A stretch of 64,000 bases of DNA from an uncultured Tateyamaria sp. (GTDB taxonomy: Bacteria > Pseudomonadota > Alphaproteobacteria > Rhodobacterales > Rhodobacteraceae). The notes beneath the pieces are model-generated. The model saw only the letters and a list, made by a program, of their open reading frames with translations, was not told the origin of the DNA and ran no database searches. The DNA is taken from contig NZ_CANMEU010000001.1 in assembly GCF_947497045.1 (NCBI RefSeq), positions 310,001 to 374,000 on the forward strand. Reading direction: 5' to 3'. Within the stretch, counting starts at the first letter, position 1; each line of letters begins with the position of its first letter. The translations under genes and the position numbers were made by a program. Positions 11,689 through 48,498 of the stretch are shown here, piece by piece.

Positions 11689-11752
11689 CCGTGCGTGATC
11701 ATAGCGGATGGGCCTGTGATAACCAGCCTTCCGATCAAGGATTCCATAACTC

Positions 11753-12796
11753 TTGCGTGACCTCAGCGATACCCTGCTCTACTGGTACGACGTGCATGCG
11801 CGCGTGATGCCGTGGCGCACCGCACCTGCCGGCAAAAAGGCGGGCCTGCGCCCGGATCCATATGCCGTGTGGATGTCCGAGATCATGCTGCAGCAGACGA
11901 CCGTGGCCGCCGTGACCGCCTATTTCCAGCGCTTCATGGCCCGCTGGCCCACGGTGAGCGATCTGGCAAGCGCGCGGGACGCGGACGTGATGGGCGAATG
12001 GGCGGGCCTTGGGTACTATGCCCGCGCGCGCAACTTGCTGAAATGCGCGCGCGCCGTGGTGGCCGAGCATGGCGGCGTGTTTCCTGCCGATCATGCCGCC
12101 TTGCTGAGACTTCCCGGGATCGGGCCGTATACCGCGGCGGCCATATCCTCGATCGCGTTCGATCTGCGCCACACGGTCGTTGATGGCAATGTCGAACGGG
12201 TCATGGCGCGGATGTTTGATGAACACACACCCCTTCCCGCTGCCAAACCGATCCTGACCGCCCATGCCGAGGCGTTGACACCGCAAGAGCGTCCCGGTGA
12301 CTATGCGCAGGCGGTCATGGATTTGGGTGCCACGATCTGCACCCCAAAGTCACCCGCATGCGGCATCTGCCCCTGGCGCGACCCCTGCATTGCGCGGGCA
12401 GAGGGGACGGCACCGGATCTGCCAAAAAAGGCACCCAAAAAACCCAAACCCGTCCGGCATGGGACGGTGTACCTCGCGCAGCGCGAAGATGGGGCATGGT
12501 TGCTGGAAACCCGGCCTGACAAAGGATTGCTGGGCGGCATGCTCGGGTGGCCCGGATCTGATTGGGTCGACATCAGTGCGCCGCGCCCAACCGCCCCACC
12601 CTTTGATGCCGCGTGGACAAAGCTGCCCGGCGACGTGCGCCATACATTTACCCATTTCCACCTGATCCTCGATGTGATGGTGGCCCCCGCCATCGACAAA
12701 GTGCCTGATCGGGGCCGATATCTGAGCCGCATCGAATTTCGCCCCTCTGACCTGCCCACCGTAATGCGCAAAGCCTTCGATCTGGCGCAGATGTGA
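11753..12796 (+). CDS. mutY: A/G-specific adenine DNA glycosylase MutY
   Basis: A 347-residue base-excision repair enzyme that removes adenine mispaired with 8-oxoguanine. Visible features are the catalytic Glu43 in MSEIMLQQT, the helix-hairpin-helix LPGIGPYTA near residue 120, and the catalytic Asp144 in VVDGN. The 4Fe-4S cysteines at 196, 203, 206 and 212 (C-x6-C-x2-C-x5-C) are present. A C-terminal NUDIX-like domain recognises 8-oxoG. An in-frame TAA just upstream forces a non-ATG start, and TTG at 11753 is the only early choice. Confidence 0.93.
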   Translation: MRDLSDTLLYWYDVHARVMPWRTAPAGKKAGLRPDPYAVWMSEIMLQQTTVAAVTAYFQRFMARWPTVSDLASARDADVMGEWAGLGYYARARNLLKCARAVVAEHGGVFPADHAALLRLPGIGPYTAAAISSIAFDLRHTVVDGNVERVMARMFDEHTPLPAAKPILTAHAEALTPQERPGDYAQAVMDLGATICTPKSPACGICPWRDPCIARAEGTAPDLPKKAPKKPKPVRHGTVYLAQREDGAWLLETRPDKGLLGGMLGWPGSDWVDISAPRPTAPPFDAAWTKLPGDVRHTFTHFHLILDVMVAPAIDKVPDRGRYLSRIEFRPSDLPTVMRKAFDLAQM

Positions 12797-12882
12797 GCAA
12801 TCGGACCGCCGCGTCACGCTTGGCAGAGCACGCATAATCGCTCTACACATATCAGGTGCGCGACAACCCCAAGGACCCGACC

Positions 12883-14019
12883 ATGATCCTGCCTCCTCAG
12901 ACTGTGGCCAAGGTACAAAATGCCCTGCCATTTGGCCTATCATTCCTGCTGATCCCATTGGCCTTTATCAGCGCCATTTATGGCGGGTGGACGGTGATCC
13001 TGTTGCCCGTGGTGACCTGGTATACGTTTTCATTTCTTGACCTTGCGGTTGGTTTGAACACCGACAATGCGGACCTTGAAACGACCGAAGAAGAACTGTT
13101 CTGGTACACCGCCATCACCATCGCCTGGGTGCCGGCGCAATTCCTGATGTTGTTCACGCTGATCTGGTATGTCGCCCCTGCCGAGCACCTCAACACCTTT
13201 GAGAAAATCGCGATCTTCTTTGGGGTTGGTGTGATCACCGGTACGGTCGGCATCAACTACAGCCATGAATTGATGCACCAGAAGAACAAACTGGAACGCT
13301 GGCTTGGGGATGCGCTGCTGGCCATGGTTCTTTATTCCCATTTCCGGTCCGAACATCTGCTGGTCCATCACCGCTATGTGGCGACACCGCGTGACCCGGT
13401 GACCGCGCGGATGGGCGAGAGTTTCTATCGCTTCTACCCCCGCGTCCTCAAACAGTGCTTCCAATCCGCGTGGAAGGCCGAGGCCGCGATGCTCGCCCGC
13501 AAGAACCTGCCTGCGACCGATTCCAGCAACCCGTTCTGGAAATATGCCTACCTACAGGGGGTGTGCTTTCTGCTGGCCTTTGCACTTGGGGGTTGGGCCG
13601 GGATCGGGCTGTTCCTTGTGCAGGCCGGGGTCGCGATCTGGCAGCTTGAGCTCGTCAATTACATCGAGCATTACGGTCTGACCCGCAAACATCTGGGCGA
13701 TGGCAAGTATGAACATGTCCAGCCCCGCCATTCGTGGAATGCAGCCCAAAAGGCATCGAACTGGCTGCTGATCAACCTTCAGCGCCATTCCGATCACCAC
13801 TATAAACCCGACCGCCGCTTTCCTGTGCTGCAAAACTACACCGAGGCTGATGCGCCCCAACTGCCCTATGGCTATCCGGTGATGACCATCGCGGCGATGT
13901 TCCCATCGCTCTGGCGGCGCGTGATGAACCCACGGGTCAAGAAGTGGCGCGACATGTACTATCCCGAGATCACGGATTGGAGCGCGTATAACAAGGCCGC
14001 CAACCCGCTGCCGCGCTAG
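12883..14019 (+). CDS. alkB: alkane 1-monooxygenase (AlkB-type integral membrane di-iron hydroxylase)
   Basis: A 378-residue membrane enzyme that hydroxylates the terminal carbon of alkanes using electrons from rubredoxin. The histidine boxes of the family are all present: HELMHQK, EHLLVHHRYVATPRDP and LQRHSDHH, together with NYIEHYGLTR. About six hydrophobic helices are evident, two before and several between the boxes. I chose the ATG with AAGGA seven bases upstream over a GTG 27 bases earlier. No rubredoxin or rubredoxin reductase is adjacent, so electron donors must come from elsewhere. The stop overlaps that of the convergent GFA gene at a shared CTAG. Confidence 0.88.
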   Translation: MILPPQTVAKVQNALPFGLSFLLIPLAFISAIYGGWTVILLPVVTWYTFSFLDLAVGLNTDNADLETTEEELFWYTAITIAWVPAQFLMLFTLIWYVAPAEHLNTFEKIAIFFGVGVITGTVGINYSHELMHQKNKLERWLGDALLAMVLYSHFRSEHLLVHHRYVATPRDPVTARMGESFYRFYPRVLKQCFQSAWKAEAAMLARKNLPATDSSNPFWKYAYLQGVCFLLAFALGGWAGIGLFLVQAGVAIWQLELVNYIEHYGLTRKHLGDGKYEHVQPRHSWNAAQKASNWLLINLQRHSDHHYKPDRRFPVLQNYTEADAPQLPYGYPVMTIAAMFPSLWRRVMNPRVKKWRDMYYPEITDWSAYNKAANPLPR

Positions 14020-14390
14020 TCTTCGCGCCCTCGGTCATATTGGGTCATCCCGGCAAAGGGTGCCAGCCACGGTGCCCTGCGCACCGTCCAGCATTCGTAG
14101 GTTGGTGTCAGGCCGTCAGGATCATCCATCGCGCCAAGGTGCAGTTCGATCTCTGCCCCGCTGCGTGCAAAAACCGATGATCCGCATGCGGGGCAAAAGT
14201 GGCGTTCGGCCTGATGCCGGGTTGGTCCGGTGACGCGCACACCGCTTTCGTCAAAGACCGCCGCAGCGTAAAACAGTGCACCATGATGCCGACGACAATC
14301 AAGGCAATGGCAGATGCCGACGCGCAAGGGCGCACCCGTCGCCACAAACCGCACAGCCCCGCAGGTGCATCCGCCCGTAACCTGTTTCAT
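14016..14390 (-). CDS. GFA (glutathione-dependent formaldehyde-activating)/CENP-V family protein
   Basis: A 124-residue zinc-binding protein. The CTCG near the start, CHCLDCRR in the middle and CPACGS later are the cysteine pairs that hold zinc in the GFA fold. Family members include Gfa, which was proposed to speed formation of S-hydroxymethylglutathione, but most homologues have no proven reaction. Its start codon shares a base with the stop of the nucleotide cyclase gene upstream (TGATG). An S-formylglutathione hydrolase gene lies elsewhere in the window, but no direct link can be shown. Confidence 0.85.
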   Translation of the reverse strand: MKQVTGGCTCGAVRFVATGAPLRVGICHCLDCRRHHGALFYAAAVFDESGVRVTGPTRHQAERHFCPACGSSVFARSGAEIELHLGAMDDPDGLTPTYECWTVRRAPWLAPFAGMTQYDRGRED

Positions 14391-15742
14391 CAGTCGATCA
14401 CCCAGACAGACACGGGTGCCGCCACGCCGCGCACCGGCTGATCGGGGGCCGCCCGAAATCCGCCCGGACGCCCCGCAGCGGTGATCGCTGCATCACTGAC
14501 AATCGCACGCACATCCAGCACCCGCGTCAACGCCTCAAGCCGACTGGCCACGTTCACCGTGTCGCCCAACACCGCAAATTCCAGCCGGTTCGCGCCAATG
14601 TCACCCAAAACAACCTGCCCGAAATGCAGACCAAAACGCGCGTCGATCTCCGTCAGGCCATCAGCGCGGCGTGCCACGTTCAACGCGTCCATCCGATCCA
14701 CCATGGCCTGCACGCAAGCGACGGCACGCGCCGCATCGTCCTCCTGCGGCAAAGGGGTACCGAATGTCGCCATCAACCCATCACCCAGATATTTGTCGAG
14801 CGTGCCGCCATGGGCAAACACCTCGCTTTCCATCCGGGCATGAAAGGCGCGCAAGGTCTCGATCACCTCTTGGGCCGGGCGTCCGTCCGCAAAGGCTGTG
14901 AAACCGACGATATCGACAAACAAAACTGCCGCATCATGCGTGCGCACCTGCCCAAGGGGTTCATCCTTGGTCGACAAAGCCTCAACCATGGTCGGGGAAA
15001 AGTACCGGGCCAGATTGGTACGCGCACGCGCAGTCTCGGCACTGTCGAGCACGAGGGTCTGATAGCGACGCACAGTGATGGCCAAAATCCCCGCAACAAG
15101 GATGAACACCACCACTTCCTGAATGCGAAAGTCCCAATGCACCACTCCCGGATCCATCTGCGCACTCAAAACCGGGTTGCCCGGGAACAAGGCCAGTGCG
15201 GCAGTGCTGACATCCGGATCGGTCCAGCCAAACCACCAGACGCACAAGGCCCCCAACAACCACAACCCGGCCGTCCACGTCCCCATCGAAATGATGGTAC
15301 GCCACGAATAGGACAGCACGCCGGCCGCCAGCAGCACATAGAAATACTGAAACACCTCGAACTGATAGATCAGCGCGGGTGGATTATGCGCATCTGACAG
15401 CGGGTTGGGCAGCAACAGCGCCAAAGTCATCAACAGAAGGTCGGCAAACAGCCACGCCAACTCGGCGCGTGACTGGCCGACCCGCCCTACACGGCGCTGT
15501 GCGAGGCTGACAAGTACCAGGCAGCCCAGAAGGGCCAGATACCAGATCACCTCCCAATTCGGGTTAAGATAGATCAGCAGCAGGGCCGTGACGGACAGGG
15601 CCGCGATGCGCGCACGCACCGCCAGATCCATACCTTCGCGCTTGTTGCGCTCAAGGGCGGTGCGGGCATGCGGATTTGCAGGAAGTTCAGCCATGGGATC
15701 GACCCGCACGGGCACGCTATCGGCTTGGGTGATGTCACTCAT
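14390..15742 (-). CDS. membrane-bound class III adenylate/guanylate cyclase
   Basis: A 450-residue protein. The N-terminal half has about six hydrophobic segments. The C-terminal half is a class III cyclase catalytic domain: LFVDIVGFTAF carries the first metal-binding Asp, YLGDGLMATFGTP the second, and VLGDTVNVASRLE the transition-state Asn and Arg. It makes a cyclic nucleotide, most likely cAMP, from the inner membrane, with the N-terminal membrane part as probable sensor. The ATG at 15742 has GGAG at good spacing; longer frames upstream cross a terminator. A cyclic-nucleotide-binding protein is encoded about 30 kb away. Confidence 0.88.
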   Translation of the reverse strand: MSDITQADSVPVRVDPMAELPANPHARTALERNKREGMDLAVRARIAALSVTALLLIYLNPNWEVIWYLALLGCLVLVSLAQRRVGRVGQSRAELAWLFADLLLMTLALLLPNPLSDAHNPPALIYQFEVFQYFYVLLAAGVLSYSWRTIISMGTWTAGLWLLGALCVWWFGWTDPDVSTAALALFPGNPVLSAQMDPGVVHWDFRIQEVVVFILVAGILAITVRRYQTLVLDSAETARARTNLARYFSPTMVEALSTKDEPLGQVRTHDAAVLFVDIVGFTAFADGRPAQEVIETLRAFHARMESEVFAHGGTLDKYLGDGLMATFGTPLPQEDDAARAVACVQAMVDRMDALNVARRADGLTEIDARFGLHFGQVVLGDIGANRLEFAVLGDTVNVASRLEALTRVLDVRAIVSDAAITAAGRPGGFRAAPDQPVRGVAAPVSVWVID

Positions 15743-15788
15743 TCCAGTTGCTCCTGCATCGGGTTGACCTATGCAACTGTAGCGCAAG

Positions 15789-15818
15789 AAAAAAGCCCCG
15801 CCAAAAGAAAGGCGGGGC
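15789..15818 (-). terminator. Rho-independent terminator of ccrM
   Basis: On the minus strand an 8-bp stem, GCCCCGCC / GGCGGGGC with an 8-nt loop, is followed by a run of six T. It lies between the ccrM stop and the cyclase start, so it ends ccrM transcription and separates the two genes. Confidence 0.85.
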
Positions 15819-15882
15819 ATAGGTACAGTGCCATAGGTCGGCGGGTTAGGCCGCAGGCACCTGGCGGTGTTCGAAAATTCGG

Positions 15883-17073
<1,191 letters not shown>

Positions 17074-44515: not shown

Positions 44516-45421
44516 TCAAGCGCGAATGGCAAGCCGCGCTGTAAGCCAACTGACCAGCATGAATGCAAAGTCCACAGGCAGCCACGCGGCCATCTGCGCC
44601 TCGTCTCCGATGCCAAAGGGCAGCACATACAGAGCAAGGCCCGACATCTCGTCCGGGGTGGCCGTCAGCACCATCGCCGAGACGTTGTTGGCGAAGTGAA
44701 CAGCCATCGCAGGCCCAAGGGTGCCCGACCGCGCCGTGAGGTCCGCCATCAGAATGCCGAACATCGTCGCCCACAGCGCAATCACCCACGCATTGCTGCC
44801 CGCACTGGCCGGCATGTAGTGCCCGATTCCGAACAGGGCCGCCGGTGCCAGCATCCAGATCAGCGGAGAGCGAAAGCGCGCTGCCAGTTGTTGCTGAATG
44901 TAGCCGCGAAAGAAAATCTCTTCGGCGCTGGTCTGGATCAACACGGCCAGCAGCGCGATGGGCAGCAGTGCAAACCACCGCCCGAAGCCCATGTTGCGGC
45001 TCAGGGGTTCGTTGAAATCGTAAGGGGGCAGCATCCAAAGTGCTGCCGTCAGCAGGATCATCGCAAACAACACGACCGTGAACTGCCGCCCGGCAAGGCC
45101 GGGTGCACCGATCAGAGATACGGGCCTGCGTTTGTGCACCATGATCACGACCAGTGCGGCGGTCACCGACAACAGCCCCAGCTGGAACAGGATGATCAAC
45201 ATCCCCTCCGCCGTCTGTCCGGTTTGTCCATCAGCCATGATGGCGCGCACTGTTTCGGGCTCCATCAGCCCAAACAGCGTGCCAAACACCAGCTGGCTGA
45301 GTGCGAGGAAAATACCCGCCGCCAGTATGATCCCGAGGATCAGCCGCCAGATCTGGGGGCTACGCGTCGCGGGCTCGATAAACCGCGCGTGCGGGCGATA
45401 ATCAAAGGACAGCACCTTCAT
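44516..45421 (-). CDS. CPBP family intramembrane metalloprotease
   Basis: A 301-residue membrane protein with about eight helices and the CPBP/Abi motifs in order: AEEIFFRG (Glu-Glu-x3-Arg), FGIGHY, and MAVHFANN. These residues bind metal in CAAX-prenyl-type proteases. Bacterial members may cut membrane proteins; the target is unknown. It starts 4 bp inside the end of the ABC-like gene, so the two proteins are made together and probably act together. Confidence 0.87.
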   Translation of the reverse strand: MKVLSFDYRPHARFIEPATRSPQIWRLILGIILAAGIFLALSQLVFGTLFGLMEPETVRAIMADGQTGQTAEGMLIILFQLGLLSVTAALVVIMVHKRRPVSLIGAPGLAGRQFTVVLFAMILLTAALWMLPPYDFNEPLSRNMGFGRWFALLPIALLAVLIQTSAEEIFFRGYIQQQLAARFRSPLIWMLAPAALFGIGHYMPASAGSNAWVIALWATMFGILMADLTARSGTLGPAMAVHFANNVSAMVLTATPDEMSGLALYVLPFGIGDEAQMAAWLPVDFAFMLVSWLTARLAIRA

Positions 45422-48400
45422 TCGTCAATCGGCGGGGCAGGTGGCCCTTCGTCTTGCGGGATGGACACGTTGGCCTGGCGCAACAGGTCCGCAGCCCCGG
45501 TAAGGTGGCTTGCAACCGTCTGCAACAGGACTTTCAGAACGGCTGTGTCATTGTCGAGGACCGCACGAAATTCAGCGGCCCCGATGCGCAGGAATTTGAC
45601 GTGGCTGGAGGCGGTCAGGTGCAACTGGCGCGGTTCATCCAGAATAATCGCCAGATCCCCGATCAGGCGTCCCGGTTCCACGGTCGTGACAATCCGGTCC
45701 TTGCCGTCCAGCGCATCGTAGCTCAGCACTGCCGTGCCCGACACACACAGATAGGCCGCATCCGCCTTTTCATTCATCGAAAAGATGCGCTGCCCCGGTT
45801 CGGCCTCGTACCATTGCGCCGCAAACGCGAGCAACCGCTGGTTCCGGCTGTCCACGCCCTGAAATAGCTCGGTGCGGGCAATGACACGCAATTTGCGGTT
45901 CAGGTCATCACCTTCGTCCTGATCGTCATGGTCCTGCACACCATCGATGCGCCCATCCTTGATCTCGACAAAAAGGTCATAGGCATCCGGGTTCTCAAAC
46001 TTTTCTTCCAGAAAGATCAACGTGGCCTCGGGCAACAGTTTGCGCAATTCCCCACGGGTCTTGCGCCGCTCGTTTGCGTCATGGCTGGCCAGCGCCCGGT
46101 CAAGGACCAACACGTCGGGGCGCTTAATCCCCGCGCGTGAAAACGCAGCCCGTTCGTGGAAGATCGTGGGCAGGTTGGTGCCGCCAAGCCCGGTCCGAAT
46201 GTCAAAAATCGTTTCCGCCACCAGCCTGCGCAGCCCCTTGTCGCTCAGCAGCTCGGCCACCAGATCCTCGATCAGTTCGCCCTTGGTGCCCGCCACCATC
46301 GATATCCGTCCATAAAGGGCGTTTTCCAACAAAGTCAGGCGGGGCAGATAGTTGTCGGGTTCGACCGGAGTGAAGAAATCGGTTGTCTGTTCACGCAAAG
46401 CCGCCCCGTTGGTTTTGCGGATTTCCACAATTTCCTTCTTGAAGCTCTCGGGGAATGCAGGGCCAATCTGTTCCGCAGTAAAGGCGAACGGCACTGTCAG
46501 CAGCAGCGCAAATTCCTCATCCGTCAGTGCAACATCGCCCTTGTCACGGCGGCGTTGTGAGATGTCGACAAGACGCTCGTACATCTCTTCGTCGATGTTG
46601 AGCGCGGTGAACAGCGGGTGGCTTGTCCCATCCATGCCAAAGGTCTGGTGCAATGTTTCAATAAGGGTTTGCGAAATCGCGATACCCTGTTCGGCCAATC
46701 CGTTGTCAAAGACCAGATTGATGAACACCGTGTTTGCGGCCAGCCCTTCCTGACTGATGTCGCGTGAGGGCGACGCGAACAACAGGTTACCCCCCAAAGG
46801 CACCGTCGGGTTAAATTCGTCTGGGTCAAACCGGTAAACGGCATCGATCACGCCCTTTTCACGCAGGCACTCTTCGACGGCGGGGCGCATTTCGACAATG
46901 GCTCTGGCAAGCTCGGGATGCCGCTCTGCGTCGATGCGGCTGTTGAGCATGCGGCGGAACATGAATTCGTCGATGCCCATCGCCTGCACAAGTTCAAACC
47001 ACCATTTGCCGATCTCGTCTTCGGTCGTCAGACCGGCAAGGGCCGGGTCCACCCAATCCGCGTCAATCCGATCAAGGCTGTTGCCCGACCGGATCGCCTC
47101 GGCCGTAAAACGATCCCGTTTTCCGTTGTTCCAGGGCACCGTCTGGGGGCTGGTCATAAGCGGCATCAACAGATTGGTGCCGAGTGTGCCATCAAACAGA
47201 TAAGGGCGCGAATGGGCGTATCCGATGCGCGCGGCAATCACTGCCTGATGCAGCTTTGACAGATCGTGACCCGCAATCGAAACCGTGCCCCGTGTCGGCA
47301 GCACCTCGCGTGTCAGCAACTCAGCCATGGCGGTGCGTTCGGTTTGGTTTTTGGCCTGAATGGCCACACGCGCGCCTTGCGGGATGGTCAGATCGATCTG
47401 TTCCAGCACCGGATTGCTGTCGGTGTTGCGCACCGTGACATCGTCCAGCACGATGTCGCCACGCAGATGTGGGATCTTGTCGGGTTCGCCTTCAAAAAGG
47501 CTTTCGTCGACCATGTCTCGCGGCGCAAAGCGTTCCGTCACGATTTCCCACCGCAGCGCCATATCCTGCGTCTGGTTGTAGTAGGTCAGCAGTTCTTTCC
47601 ACGGGTTCGACAGATCTTTGTAAGCTGCCAAAGCAGCGACCAGCGCGCCCACGGTAATCTCGCCCTGAATGGCAAGATACCCCCCGACCGAATAGAAAAA
47701 GAAGGGCGTCAGTTGAGTGATGAAGTTGTTGAGAAACTTCATAAAAAACTTTTGCTGATAAATCTTGAAGCGCAACTCGAAGATATGGTTCAGCCGGTCG
47801 GTGAATTGGGCCAGTCGATACCGCAGCCCGCCATTGGTACGCAGGTCCGAAATCCCCGCCGCACTTTCACCGATTTCGGACGAAAAGGCGCGCACCTGCT
47901 TGATCCGGTCTTTGTTCAGCAGGTTGATGCGCCGTTGCAGGATCGGAATGATGTAGGCCTGAAGCGGGATCAGCGCGACCCCGGCCAGGCCAAACCACAC
48001 CGATTGCAGAAACAGGAACACCACGATGATAAGCATCTGGCCCGCCTGAAACACGGGTTGGGCCACCATGTCCCCCATCAGCCCGCCCATCGGCTCGGCT
48101 TCGGAGGTGACCATGCTGACCAGCTCACCCTGACTGGTGGAGCGGAAATAGCTGCGCGGGAATCGCAGCATCCGGCTGATCAGCTGGAACCGGAAGCGGC
48201 GCAGCAGCCGTTCGGCGGTCACCCCCTTCATGGTGTTGAGCCGCATTTTGAGCAGCCCATGCACCAGCACAGCCCCCAGATATCCAAAACACAGCGCCAG
48301 CAGGAACTGGATCTGCGTCACCTCGACCCCCCACACATCAATGGTGTTGTCCGTCGCCCCGATCGCGTCATTGATCACCCGTTTGGGCAATTCCAGTGTC

Positions 48401-48498
48401 GCGTAGAGAAACGGAAACGTCACGATCGTCAGAGCCAGAAGCATCAACTGATCGCGTTTGGAGTGCTTCCAGATGAAAGCGAAAAGAGTGGAATCCAT
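45418..48498 (-). CDS. ABC-exporter-like protein with degenerate ATPase domain, large insertion and C-terminal cNMP-binding domain
   Basis: A 1026-residue protein. Residues ~1-320 form a type-1 ABC exporter membrane domain (several helices, long coupling helices). Residues ~345-450 and ~710-855 are the two halves of an ABC nucleotide-binding fold, split by an insertion of about 260 residues. The Walker A position reads QAKNQTER (381-388), without the GxGKS/T core. The Q-loop Gln is replaced (YAHSRPYLFDGT), the LSGGQ position reads HERAAFS, Walker B DVLVLD is followed by Arg instead of the catalytic Glu, and no H-loop His is seen. Residues ~875-1000 form a cyclic-nucleotide-binding domain (PGRLIGDLAIILDEPRQL). 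ATP hydrolysis is therefore unlikely. It is translationally coupled to the CPBP protease. Confidence 0.85.
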   Translation of the reverse strand: MDSTLFAFIWKHSKRDQLMLLALTIVTFPFLYATLELPKRVINDAIGATDNTIDVWGVEVTQIQFLLALCFGYLGAVLVHGLLKMRLNTMKGVTAERLLRRFRFQLISRMLRFPRSYFRSTSQGELVSMVTSEAEPMGGLMGDMVAQPVFQAGQMLIIVVFLFLQSVWFGLAGVALIPLQAYIIPILQRRINLLNKDRIKQVRAFSSEIGESAAGISDLRTNGGLRYRLAQFTDRLNHIFELRFKIYQQKFFMKFLNNFITQLTPFFFYSVGGYLAIQGEITVGALVAALAAYKDLSNPWKELLTYYNQTQDMALRWEIVTERFAPRDMVDESLFEGEPDKIPHLRGDIVLDDVTVRNTDSNPVLEQIDLTIPQGARVAIQAKNQTERTAMAELLTREVLPTRGTVSIAGHDLSKLHQAVIAARIGYAHSRPYLFDGTLGTNLLMPLMTSPQTVPWNNGKRDRFTAEAIRSGNSLDRIDADWVDPALAGLTTEDEIGKWWFELVQAMGIDEFMFRRMLNSRIDAERHPELARAIVEMRPAVEECLREKGVIDAVYRFDPDEFNPTVPLGGNLLFASPSRDISQEGLAANTVFINLVFDNGLAEQGIAISQTLIETLHQTFGMDGTSHPLFTALNIDEEMYERLVDISQRRRDKGDVALTDEEFALLLTVPFAFTAEQIGPAFPESFKKEIVEIRKTNGAALREQTTDFFTPVEPDNYLPRLTLLENALYGRISMVAGTKGELIEDLVAELLSDKGLRRLVAETIFDIRTGLGGTNLPTIFHERAAFSRAGIKRPDVLVLDRALASHDANERRKTRGELRKLLPEATLIFLEEKFENPDAYDLFVEIKDGRIDGVQDHDDQDEGDDLNRKLRVIARTELFQGVDSRNQRLLAFAAQWYEAEPGQRIFSMNEKADAAYLCVSGTAVLSYDALDGKDRIVTTVEPGRLIGDLAIILDEPRQLHLTASSHVKFLRIGAAEFRAVLDNDTAVLKVLLQTVASHLTGAADLLRQANVSIPQDEGPPAPPIDE

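Follow-up and report, generated by a model that had tools for sequence, protein, structure and literature searches.

A catalytically degenerate ABC exporter fused to a cyclic-nucleotide-binding domain co-occurs with a glycosyltransferase gene cluster

A 64,000-nucleotide stretch of the genome of an uncultured Tateyamaria sp. (Rhodobacteraceae; contig NZ_CANMEU010000001.1, positions 310,001 to 374,000; hereafter the window) encodes on its minus strand a 1026-residue protein that joins an ATP-binding cassette (ABC) exporter scaffold with degenerate ATPase motifs to a C-terminal cyclic-nucleotide-binding (cNMP) domain. On balance, we favour a role for this pseudo-exporter in a dedicated glycan pathway, as a component that is linked to cNMP and does not act as an ATPase. 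Its open reading frame (ORF) is intact from the ATG at 48498 to the stop at 45418, and a locus search found 40 related loci. Records name the family variously as 'ABC transporter transmembrane domain-containing protein', 'cyclic nucleotide-binding domain-containing protein', 'ABC transporter ATP-binding protein' and 'putative multidrug ABC transporter'.

Pfam analysis identified ABC_membrane at residues 52-291 (3.6e-23) and cNMP_binding at residues 899-984 (2.4e-13; 50.3 bits against a cut-off of 27.5), together with a trace of ABC_tran at residues 365-459 that falls below its cut-off. In a phmmer search of the PDB, PCAT1 aligned to residues 100-445 and weakly to residues 770-853, a pattern that places a long insert inside the nucleotide-binding domain (NBD) and explains the sub-threshold ABC_tran trace. 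Of five regions that were compared, the membrane domain (residues 1-344) shows the highest conservation, with 132 of its 344 columns invariant among the rows of the protein's own clade (A2, described below) that have a residue there. It contains a Gly/acidic stretch at residues 131-144, where the predicted local distance difference test (pLDDT) score of the structural model is low.

The catalytic motifs were compared in an alignment of 92 family members (70 close, including the window protein, and 22 distant) with six exporter-like control proteins, which are six of nine other similarity matches in the window's own genome. The close members include a few near-identical pairs (one strain from two collections, for example L016/L103 and L021/L105; L numbers denote loci and G numbers genomes), and about a third of the copies detected across the window's order entered the alignment. 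Outside the 92 are fourteen near-duplicate Tateyamaria loci, the partial genes L032, L035, L038 and L040, and the genes of L033, L099 and L101, which selection by longest ORF missed. L125, an incorrect ORF, and L165_7, an ABC protein of the secretion type, do not enter the motif counts. In the window protein, the three Gly residues and the Lys of Walker A are replaced by A382, Q385, E387 and R388, respectively, the Q-loop Gln by S430, the LSGGQ signature by LPTIF, the Glu after Walker B by R801 and the switch His by E832. These replacements had been listed in a preliminary description made from the DNA sequence, and the alignment reproduces all of them; the Walker B Asp (D800) and the D-loop Asp (D807) are retained. 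Among the close members, 38 have Asp at position 800, 17 have Glu and 15 have another residue. The A-loop column (N358 in the window protein) holds Tyr in just three of the six controls and hence offers no clean test.

Across eleven catalytic positions, every control keeps all 11, and the 70 close members keep none (n = 29), one (n = 30) or two (n = 11). The Walker A Lys is present in 0/70 close members, 7/22 distant relatives and 6/6 controls. Between one and eight of the eleven positions are retained by the 22 distant relatives, some of which have a GKS or GKD Walker A, so the family likely had an ATP-using ancestor. Homologues with intact motifs, which the preliminary description had named as a sign of local decay, are absent among the 70 close members, and the distant relatives are intact in part. 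One further family member turned up in the window's own genome; it is 53% identical and likewise degenerate. The window NBD can probably hardly hydrolyse ATP.

Comparison with a 95% identical relative (L001) gave ratios of nonsynonymous to synonymous substitution rates (dN/dS) of 0.014-0.084 in all five regions (membrane domain, each half of the NBD, insert and cNMP domain); the ratios are 0.05-0.13 against L002 and L010, and dS is saturated against L014. The frame is thus under purifying selection, in line with the maintenance that the preliminary description had read from its intactness. As far as sequences can tell, the catalytic loss is clade-wide and under purifying selection, and not local decay. 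AlphaFold2 modelling of the whole chain with 41 sequences gave a mean pLDDT of 76, with parts of the membrane domain weak, and residues 340-862 modelled alone reached a pLDDT of 87 and a predicted template-modelling (TM) score of 0.80. When this segment was submitted to Foldseek, the rows with the best E-values were whole P-glycoproteins with low query TM-scores (0.18-0.20), and single NBDs aligned over 513-523 columns with target-normalised TM-scores of 0.74 for ComA (3vx4) and 0.78 for TAP1 (1jj7 and 2ixf). Root-mean-square deviations were 7.6 for ComA and 7.1 and 4.5 for TAP1, and the query-normalised TM-scores are low (0.36-0.39) because of the insert. In the predicted structure, the ABC fold persists in the window NBD, in agreement with the exporter membrane domain and NBD outline proposed at the start. 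We also considered whether the motifs had moved elsewhere in the chain and rejected this, given that the Q-loop, Walker B, D-loop and H-loop columns align and the modelled fold spans both halves.

Between the Q-loop and the signature, close members have 340-362 residues (median 344), distant members have 326-425 and the controls have 56. A mid-protein insert had been noted at about 260 residues; it is present, and its size is about 290 residues beyond ordinary exporters. Because distant members also have a stretch of 326-425 residues, the insert preceded most of the motif loss. Comparison of two modules by hhalign, m2 (residues 548-612) and m3 (residues 703-767), gave a probability of 97.8 and an E-value of 6.9e-13, with 20 column-shuffled nulls at 2.2 or less. 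Matches to the canonical Q-loop-to-signature segment were obtained at residues 426-468 (95.1) and 722-781 (94.1), the shuffled nulls covering the m2-m3 pair alone; both matches span canonical columns 13-39, so this stretch is present at least twice. Compared directly, m2 and the canonical segment reach a probability of just 7.0. A threefold repeat was rejected, as only the m2-m3 pair is firm (m1 against m2, 64%; m1 against m3, 19%; m2 against canonical, 7%), and a foreign domain was likewise set aside, as phmmer against the PDB returned two matches alone (E 0.58 and 0.7) and self-comparison indicated duplication. The simplest reading of these comparisons is that part of the NBD helical subdomain was duplicated in place.

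Close members carry the cNMP domain fused to the exporter scaffold, and its cassette Arg, which we take to be the phosphate ligand of the cyclic nucleotide, is present in 70/70. Among the distant loci, a separate, adjacent cNMP ORF was found by profile or BLAST in 14/22, and the domain is fused in three (L093-L095; Pfam was run on L093). PF00027 is the sole Pfam match of the cNMP protein at L088, which has a relative at 19373-19840 of L173 (Rhizobium etli CIAT 652 plasmid pA), a small cNMP protein of 155 residues by its coordinates whose annotation reads transcriptional regulator. At five of nine named clade-B loci (L025, L027, L028, L029 and L031), a cyclase-like gene is located no more than about 1 kb upstream of the pseudo-exporter; others occur near L082 and L101 and inside the R. 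etli, Mesorhizobium and Sinorhizobium meliloti clusters, with cyclase identity tested by Pfam for L028 and L082 among these neighbours. This proximity is circumstantial evidence for cNMP control. The preliminary description had proposed a cNMP-gated membrane protein that is not a pump: the cNMP domain and the loss of catalytic residues both hold, and a cyclic nucleotide may bind and gate the protein. The window also encodes a class III adenylate/guanylate cyclase of 522 residues on the minus strand (14393-15958; Pfam Guanylate_cyc, 9.2e-21), which is 34% identical to the L028 cyclase beside a clade-B pseudo-exporter and is a possible source of the signal.

In the Sulfitobacter loci L021, L023 and L034, the pseudo-exporter gene directly follows a set of glycosyltransferase (GT) and associated genes on one strand, in the order GT28a, GT4a, GT4b, histidine phosphatase, GT28b and a deacetylase-like gene, the product of which resembles polysaccharide deacetylases and has a weak DUF2334 match. 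Comparable GT gene sets adjoin the pseudo-exporter in other families (L083, L085, L086, L087, L088, L089 and L090). GT genes also adjoin the R. etli relative, two of them named redA and redB, and the Mesorhizobium cluster adds genes for an S-adenosylmethionine (SAM) methyltransferase, an MBL-fold hydrolase, a DUF3095 protein and a nucleotide-sugar dehydrogenase. At L160, a divergent gene for an MscS-type channel (11741-14227, 828 residues) adjoins glycosyltransferase genes, and ORFs of similar size occupy that place in L168 and L170. The cluster of the window's genome lies elsewhere (G000:C7), with five of the six genes labelled and a GT4a that is 69% identical.

Genome-wide co-occurrence was scored with GT4a, one of the six cluster genes. 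Among 398 Pseudomonadota genomes, the full-length family is present in 27, spanning 10 families and 19 genera, and GT4a (at least 571 bits) is present in the identical 27 and in 0/371 others; this cut was taken from a gap in the scores after seeing it, and the preset E-value of 1e-80 would add four genomes (G333, G102, G246 and G004), each at 324 bits or less. A 382-residue match in a metagenome-assembled genome (G124) and a membrane domain on its own (G575) were not counted as full-length. Within the window's order, the family is present in 82/292 genomes, and it also occurs on rhizobial plasmids. All 82 genomes with the full-length protein have GT4a, as does 1/210 others, counts for which the Fisher test treats related genomes as independent. 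The lone GT-only genome (G555) has a 333-residue membrane-domain frame. As a control, a gene for a CPBP protein was found in 74/82 genomes with the pseudo-exporter and 114/210 without it. At the level of gene content, this co-occurrence suggests a link between the family and a single glycan pathway. None of the six cluster enzymes at L021 has a membrane domain named by Pfam, and the pseudo-exporter is the only Sulfitobacter cluster product with a Pfam-named membrane domain.

A tree built by a quick method, with no bootstrap, placed the close members in three clades, A1 (13 rows), A2 (21 rows) and B (36 rows), each with a Shimodaira-Hasegawa-like approximate likelihood ratio (SH-aLRT) value of at least 98. 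A1 comprises Sulfitobacter and others, A2 holds the window gene and B holds the second copy of its genome. Two full-length copies were counted in 55/82 genomes and one in 27/82, which are lower bounds, as two candidates were scored per genome, and two of the listed rows of this survey (G487 and G439) have an inner stop. For copies of known clade, a position within 50 kb of GT4a was found in 18/27 genomes for B and in 1/4 for A1. A CPBP/Rce1-like gene lies directly downstream of the pseudo-exporter in 18/18 A2 loci (74 loci searched), and G441 and G641 each have a single copy that adjoins CPBP like the A2 copies, together with GT4a. We considered the CPBP protease as a functional partner and set it aside, as it is present in 114/210 genomes without the pseudo-exporter and the tie may be positional.

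A cNMP-responsive, ATP-independent component is favoured because a glycan pathway needs a membrane step, ATP use is improbable and a cNMP domain is present. In the mechanism that we propose, an exporter membrane domain with a non-hydrolysing NBD of retained fold would act, probably, as a homodimer or in a pair with its paralogue, and the glycan would be built by the two GT28-like and two GT4 glycosyltransferases, the histidine phosphatase and the polysaccharide-deacetylase-like protein. The cNMP domain would read a cyclic nucleotide, perhaps supplied by class III cyclases, and, by way of the pseudo-NBD, would determine which state the membrane domain adopts. The glycan or its lipid carrier would most likely be passed or flipped down its gradient when the signal allows, a platform role being about as likely.

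That platform role, which shares the pathway claim, would resemble the one played by SUR: the protein would transport nothing, and the pseudo-NBD and cNMP domain would act as a switch or recruit the glycosyltransferases. We regard it as a plausible alternative, short of the favoured reading of a cNMP-linked pathway component as a whole. It is consistent with the loss of ATPase motifs under a persisting fold and persisting selection, with cluster enzymes at L021 in which Pfam names no membrane domain, and with the separate cNMP protein of 14/22 distant loci, which could act on two or more partners. However, conservation is highest in the membrane domain, including its Gly/acidic stretch, which suggests more than an anchor. 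The more specific form of our proposal, a cNMP-gated, exporter-derived and ATP-independent translocator of a glycan or glycolipid, in which the NBD was enlarged, the ATPase was then lost and a cNMP switch replaced the power stroke, is put forward only tentatively.

It is unlikely that the protein still works as a pump that draws its energy from ATP bound at another site or from a partner whose NBD is functional. The distant relatives with up to 8/11 catalytic positions and a GKS or GKD Walker A would fit such a pump, as would another ABC exporter-type gene near L165 and L169, that of L165 being a strong ABC_tran match; yet close members retain 0-2/11, the second copy in the window's genome is as degenerate as the first, and no intact NBD gene recurs beside close members in the mapped loci, although this was not tested systematically and the genome has other exporters. 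Less probable again is that the GT co-occurrence reflects shared history and that the pseudo-exporter has an unrelated job. While 47/82 genomes lack a copy that shares a contig with GT4a at a distance of 50 kb or less, presence matches across 10 families in a patchy distribution and distant groups share a common neighbourhood. Moreover, G565, G537 and G488 have neither pseudo-exporter nor close GT4a, yet retain CPBP, and 12/14 listed genomes of the genus of G565 and G537 have the system. A pseudogene or locally decayed exporter, as motif loss and an S. meliloti relative split over two frames might suggest, hardly merits consideration in view of the low dN/dS against L001, the 0-2/11 positions in all 70 close members and the inner stops in only two of the listed survey rows.

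Several observations weigh against a cNMP-linked, ATP-independent role in the glycan pathway. Clade A2, to which the window copy belongs, lies within 50 kb of GT4a in 0/15 genomes; with the window copy distant from the GT cluster, its link to the pathway rests on co-occurrence. With 6-8/11 catalytic positions retained, ATP use may persist in some distant members. At 5/22 distant loci no cNMP gene was seen, and no cyclase was found in the examined stretch of 4/9 named clade-B loci (L024, L026, L030 and L037). The acidic cassette residue, presumably a ribose contact when it is Glu, is Glu in 36/70 close members and Asp in 34/70, including the window protein and its clade. Finally, the R. etli, S. 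meliloti and L086 clusters contain oligopeptide ABC genes and the GT28-like RedA of R. etli is annotated as membrane-anchored, so the pseudo-exporter need not be the sole membrane part.

Table 1. Coordinates of the pseudo-exporter, its parts and the downstream gene in the window
Feature	Position	Strand	Basis
Whole ORF, pseudo-ABC exporter with cNMP domain, clade A2	45418..48498	-	ORF call, Pfam, tree
Exporter transmembrane domain, residues 1-344	47467..48498	-	Pfam ABC_membrane, PDB exporter matches
First half of split NBD, residues 345-450	47149..47466	-	Weak ABC_tran, PCAT1 alignment, model
Walker A columns, residues 382-389: A-K-N-Q-T-E-R-T in place of Gly-x-x-Gly-x-Gly-Lys-Ser/Thr	47332..47355	-	
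Q-loop column, residue 430, Ser for Gln	47209..47211	-	
Insert from Q-loop to signature, residues 451-769	46192..47148	-	Alignment lengths
Module m2, copy of m3, residues 548-612	46663..46857	-	hhalign
Module m3, running into signature region, residues 703-767	46198..46392	-	hhalign
Second NBD half with degenerate signature, Walker B, D-loop and H-loop, residues 770-856	45931..46191	-	
Signature columns, residues 776-780, LPTIF for LSGGQ	46159..46173	-	
Walker B to D-loop, residues 796-807: Asp800 and Asp807 kept, Glu replaced by Arg801	46078..46113	-	
Switch His column, residue 832, Glu	46003..46005	-	
Cyclic-nucleotide-binding domain, residues 863-1005; cassette Asp948 and Arg957	45484..45912	-	Pfam
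CPBP/Rce1-like gene, 4-base overlap with pseudo-exporter end	44516..45421	-	

Shorter and broken relatives were also seen. Proteins of about 400-465 residues that match the membrane domain only are encoded in L079 (3531-4730), L080 (3001-4200), L081 (3540-4781, minus strand), L155, L156 and L172; that of L079 has Pfam ABC_membrane alone and adjoins a multicopper oxidase gene, with related neighbours in L080 and L081. On S. meliloti pSymB, strains 1021 and RCAM1115 (L176 and L177) have a relative in two pieces in different frames, with the switch near query residue 114, and RCAM1115 has no coding sequence annotated at the split relative; this may be a broken gene.

The GT co-occurrence, the separate cNMP gene, the nearby cyclases, the insert duplication and the second degenerate copy go beyond the preliminary description. 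A literature search by titles and abstract beginnings returned no paper about the pseudo-exporter or the GT cluster among the matches listed, nor one on the R. etli redA-redB cluster, and the GT cluster is not treated in the available portions of PMC4558948, PMC2887384, PMC3616915 and PMC5498481. A different RedB, a Crp/Fnr regulator of Rhodobacter, is among the matches listed, and the locus tag SMb21200 is named there as a predicted enhancer-binding protein. The family shows ATPase loss in graded steps, from partly intact to fully degenerate, and gives annotators a reason against naming it a drug exporter. It also offers a tractable system for asking how an exporter scaffold functions without ATP and by what route cAMP-type signalling might act on a polysaccharide. 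Both cNMP domains and ABC scaffolds that lack ATPase activity have been described before; what appears to be new, in that it was not seen among the matches listed, is their combination, the graded series and the tie to a glycan cluster.

Among known systems, the membrane domain and NBD fold align with those of homodimeric exporters such as MsbA, PCAT1 and PglK, but unlike these the window protein lacks a canonical Walker A, signature, catalytic Glu, Q-loop Gln and switch His, and has about 290 extra residues and a C-terminal cNMP domain. Degenerate catalytic residues are shared with the heterodimers TM287/288, TmrAB and TAP, in which one site is degenerate and the other canonical, whereas both family copies found in the window's genome are degenerate; pairing with an unrelated, canonical exporter of that genome is conceivable. 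The cNMP domain resembles Crp/Fnr-type and channel domains (PF00027) in its match above the Pfam cut-off and its cassette Arg, and differs in its fusion to an exporter scaffold and in the Asp for Glu of its clade. The R. etli CIAT 652 redA-redB cluster (plasmid pA, RHECIAT_PA0000036-40) likewise has GT28-like, GT4 and GT genes followed by a 904-residue relative and a small cNMP protein, but this relative is 28% identical to the window protein and its cNMP part is separate. To our knowledge, few ABC proteins have given up ATP-driven transport, and the best-known examples are eukaryotic. In CFTR and SUR1/SUR2, ABC scaffolds came to serve as a gated channel or as a regulator, with NBDs that still bind ATP; the likeness lies in the converted scaffold and is an analogy only, with no kinship to ABCC proteins claimed, and if the translocator proposal is true, the family would be a bacterial counterpart of CFTR and SUR among the eukaryotic ABC proteins.

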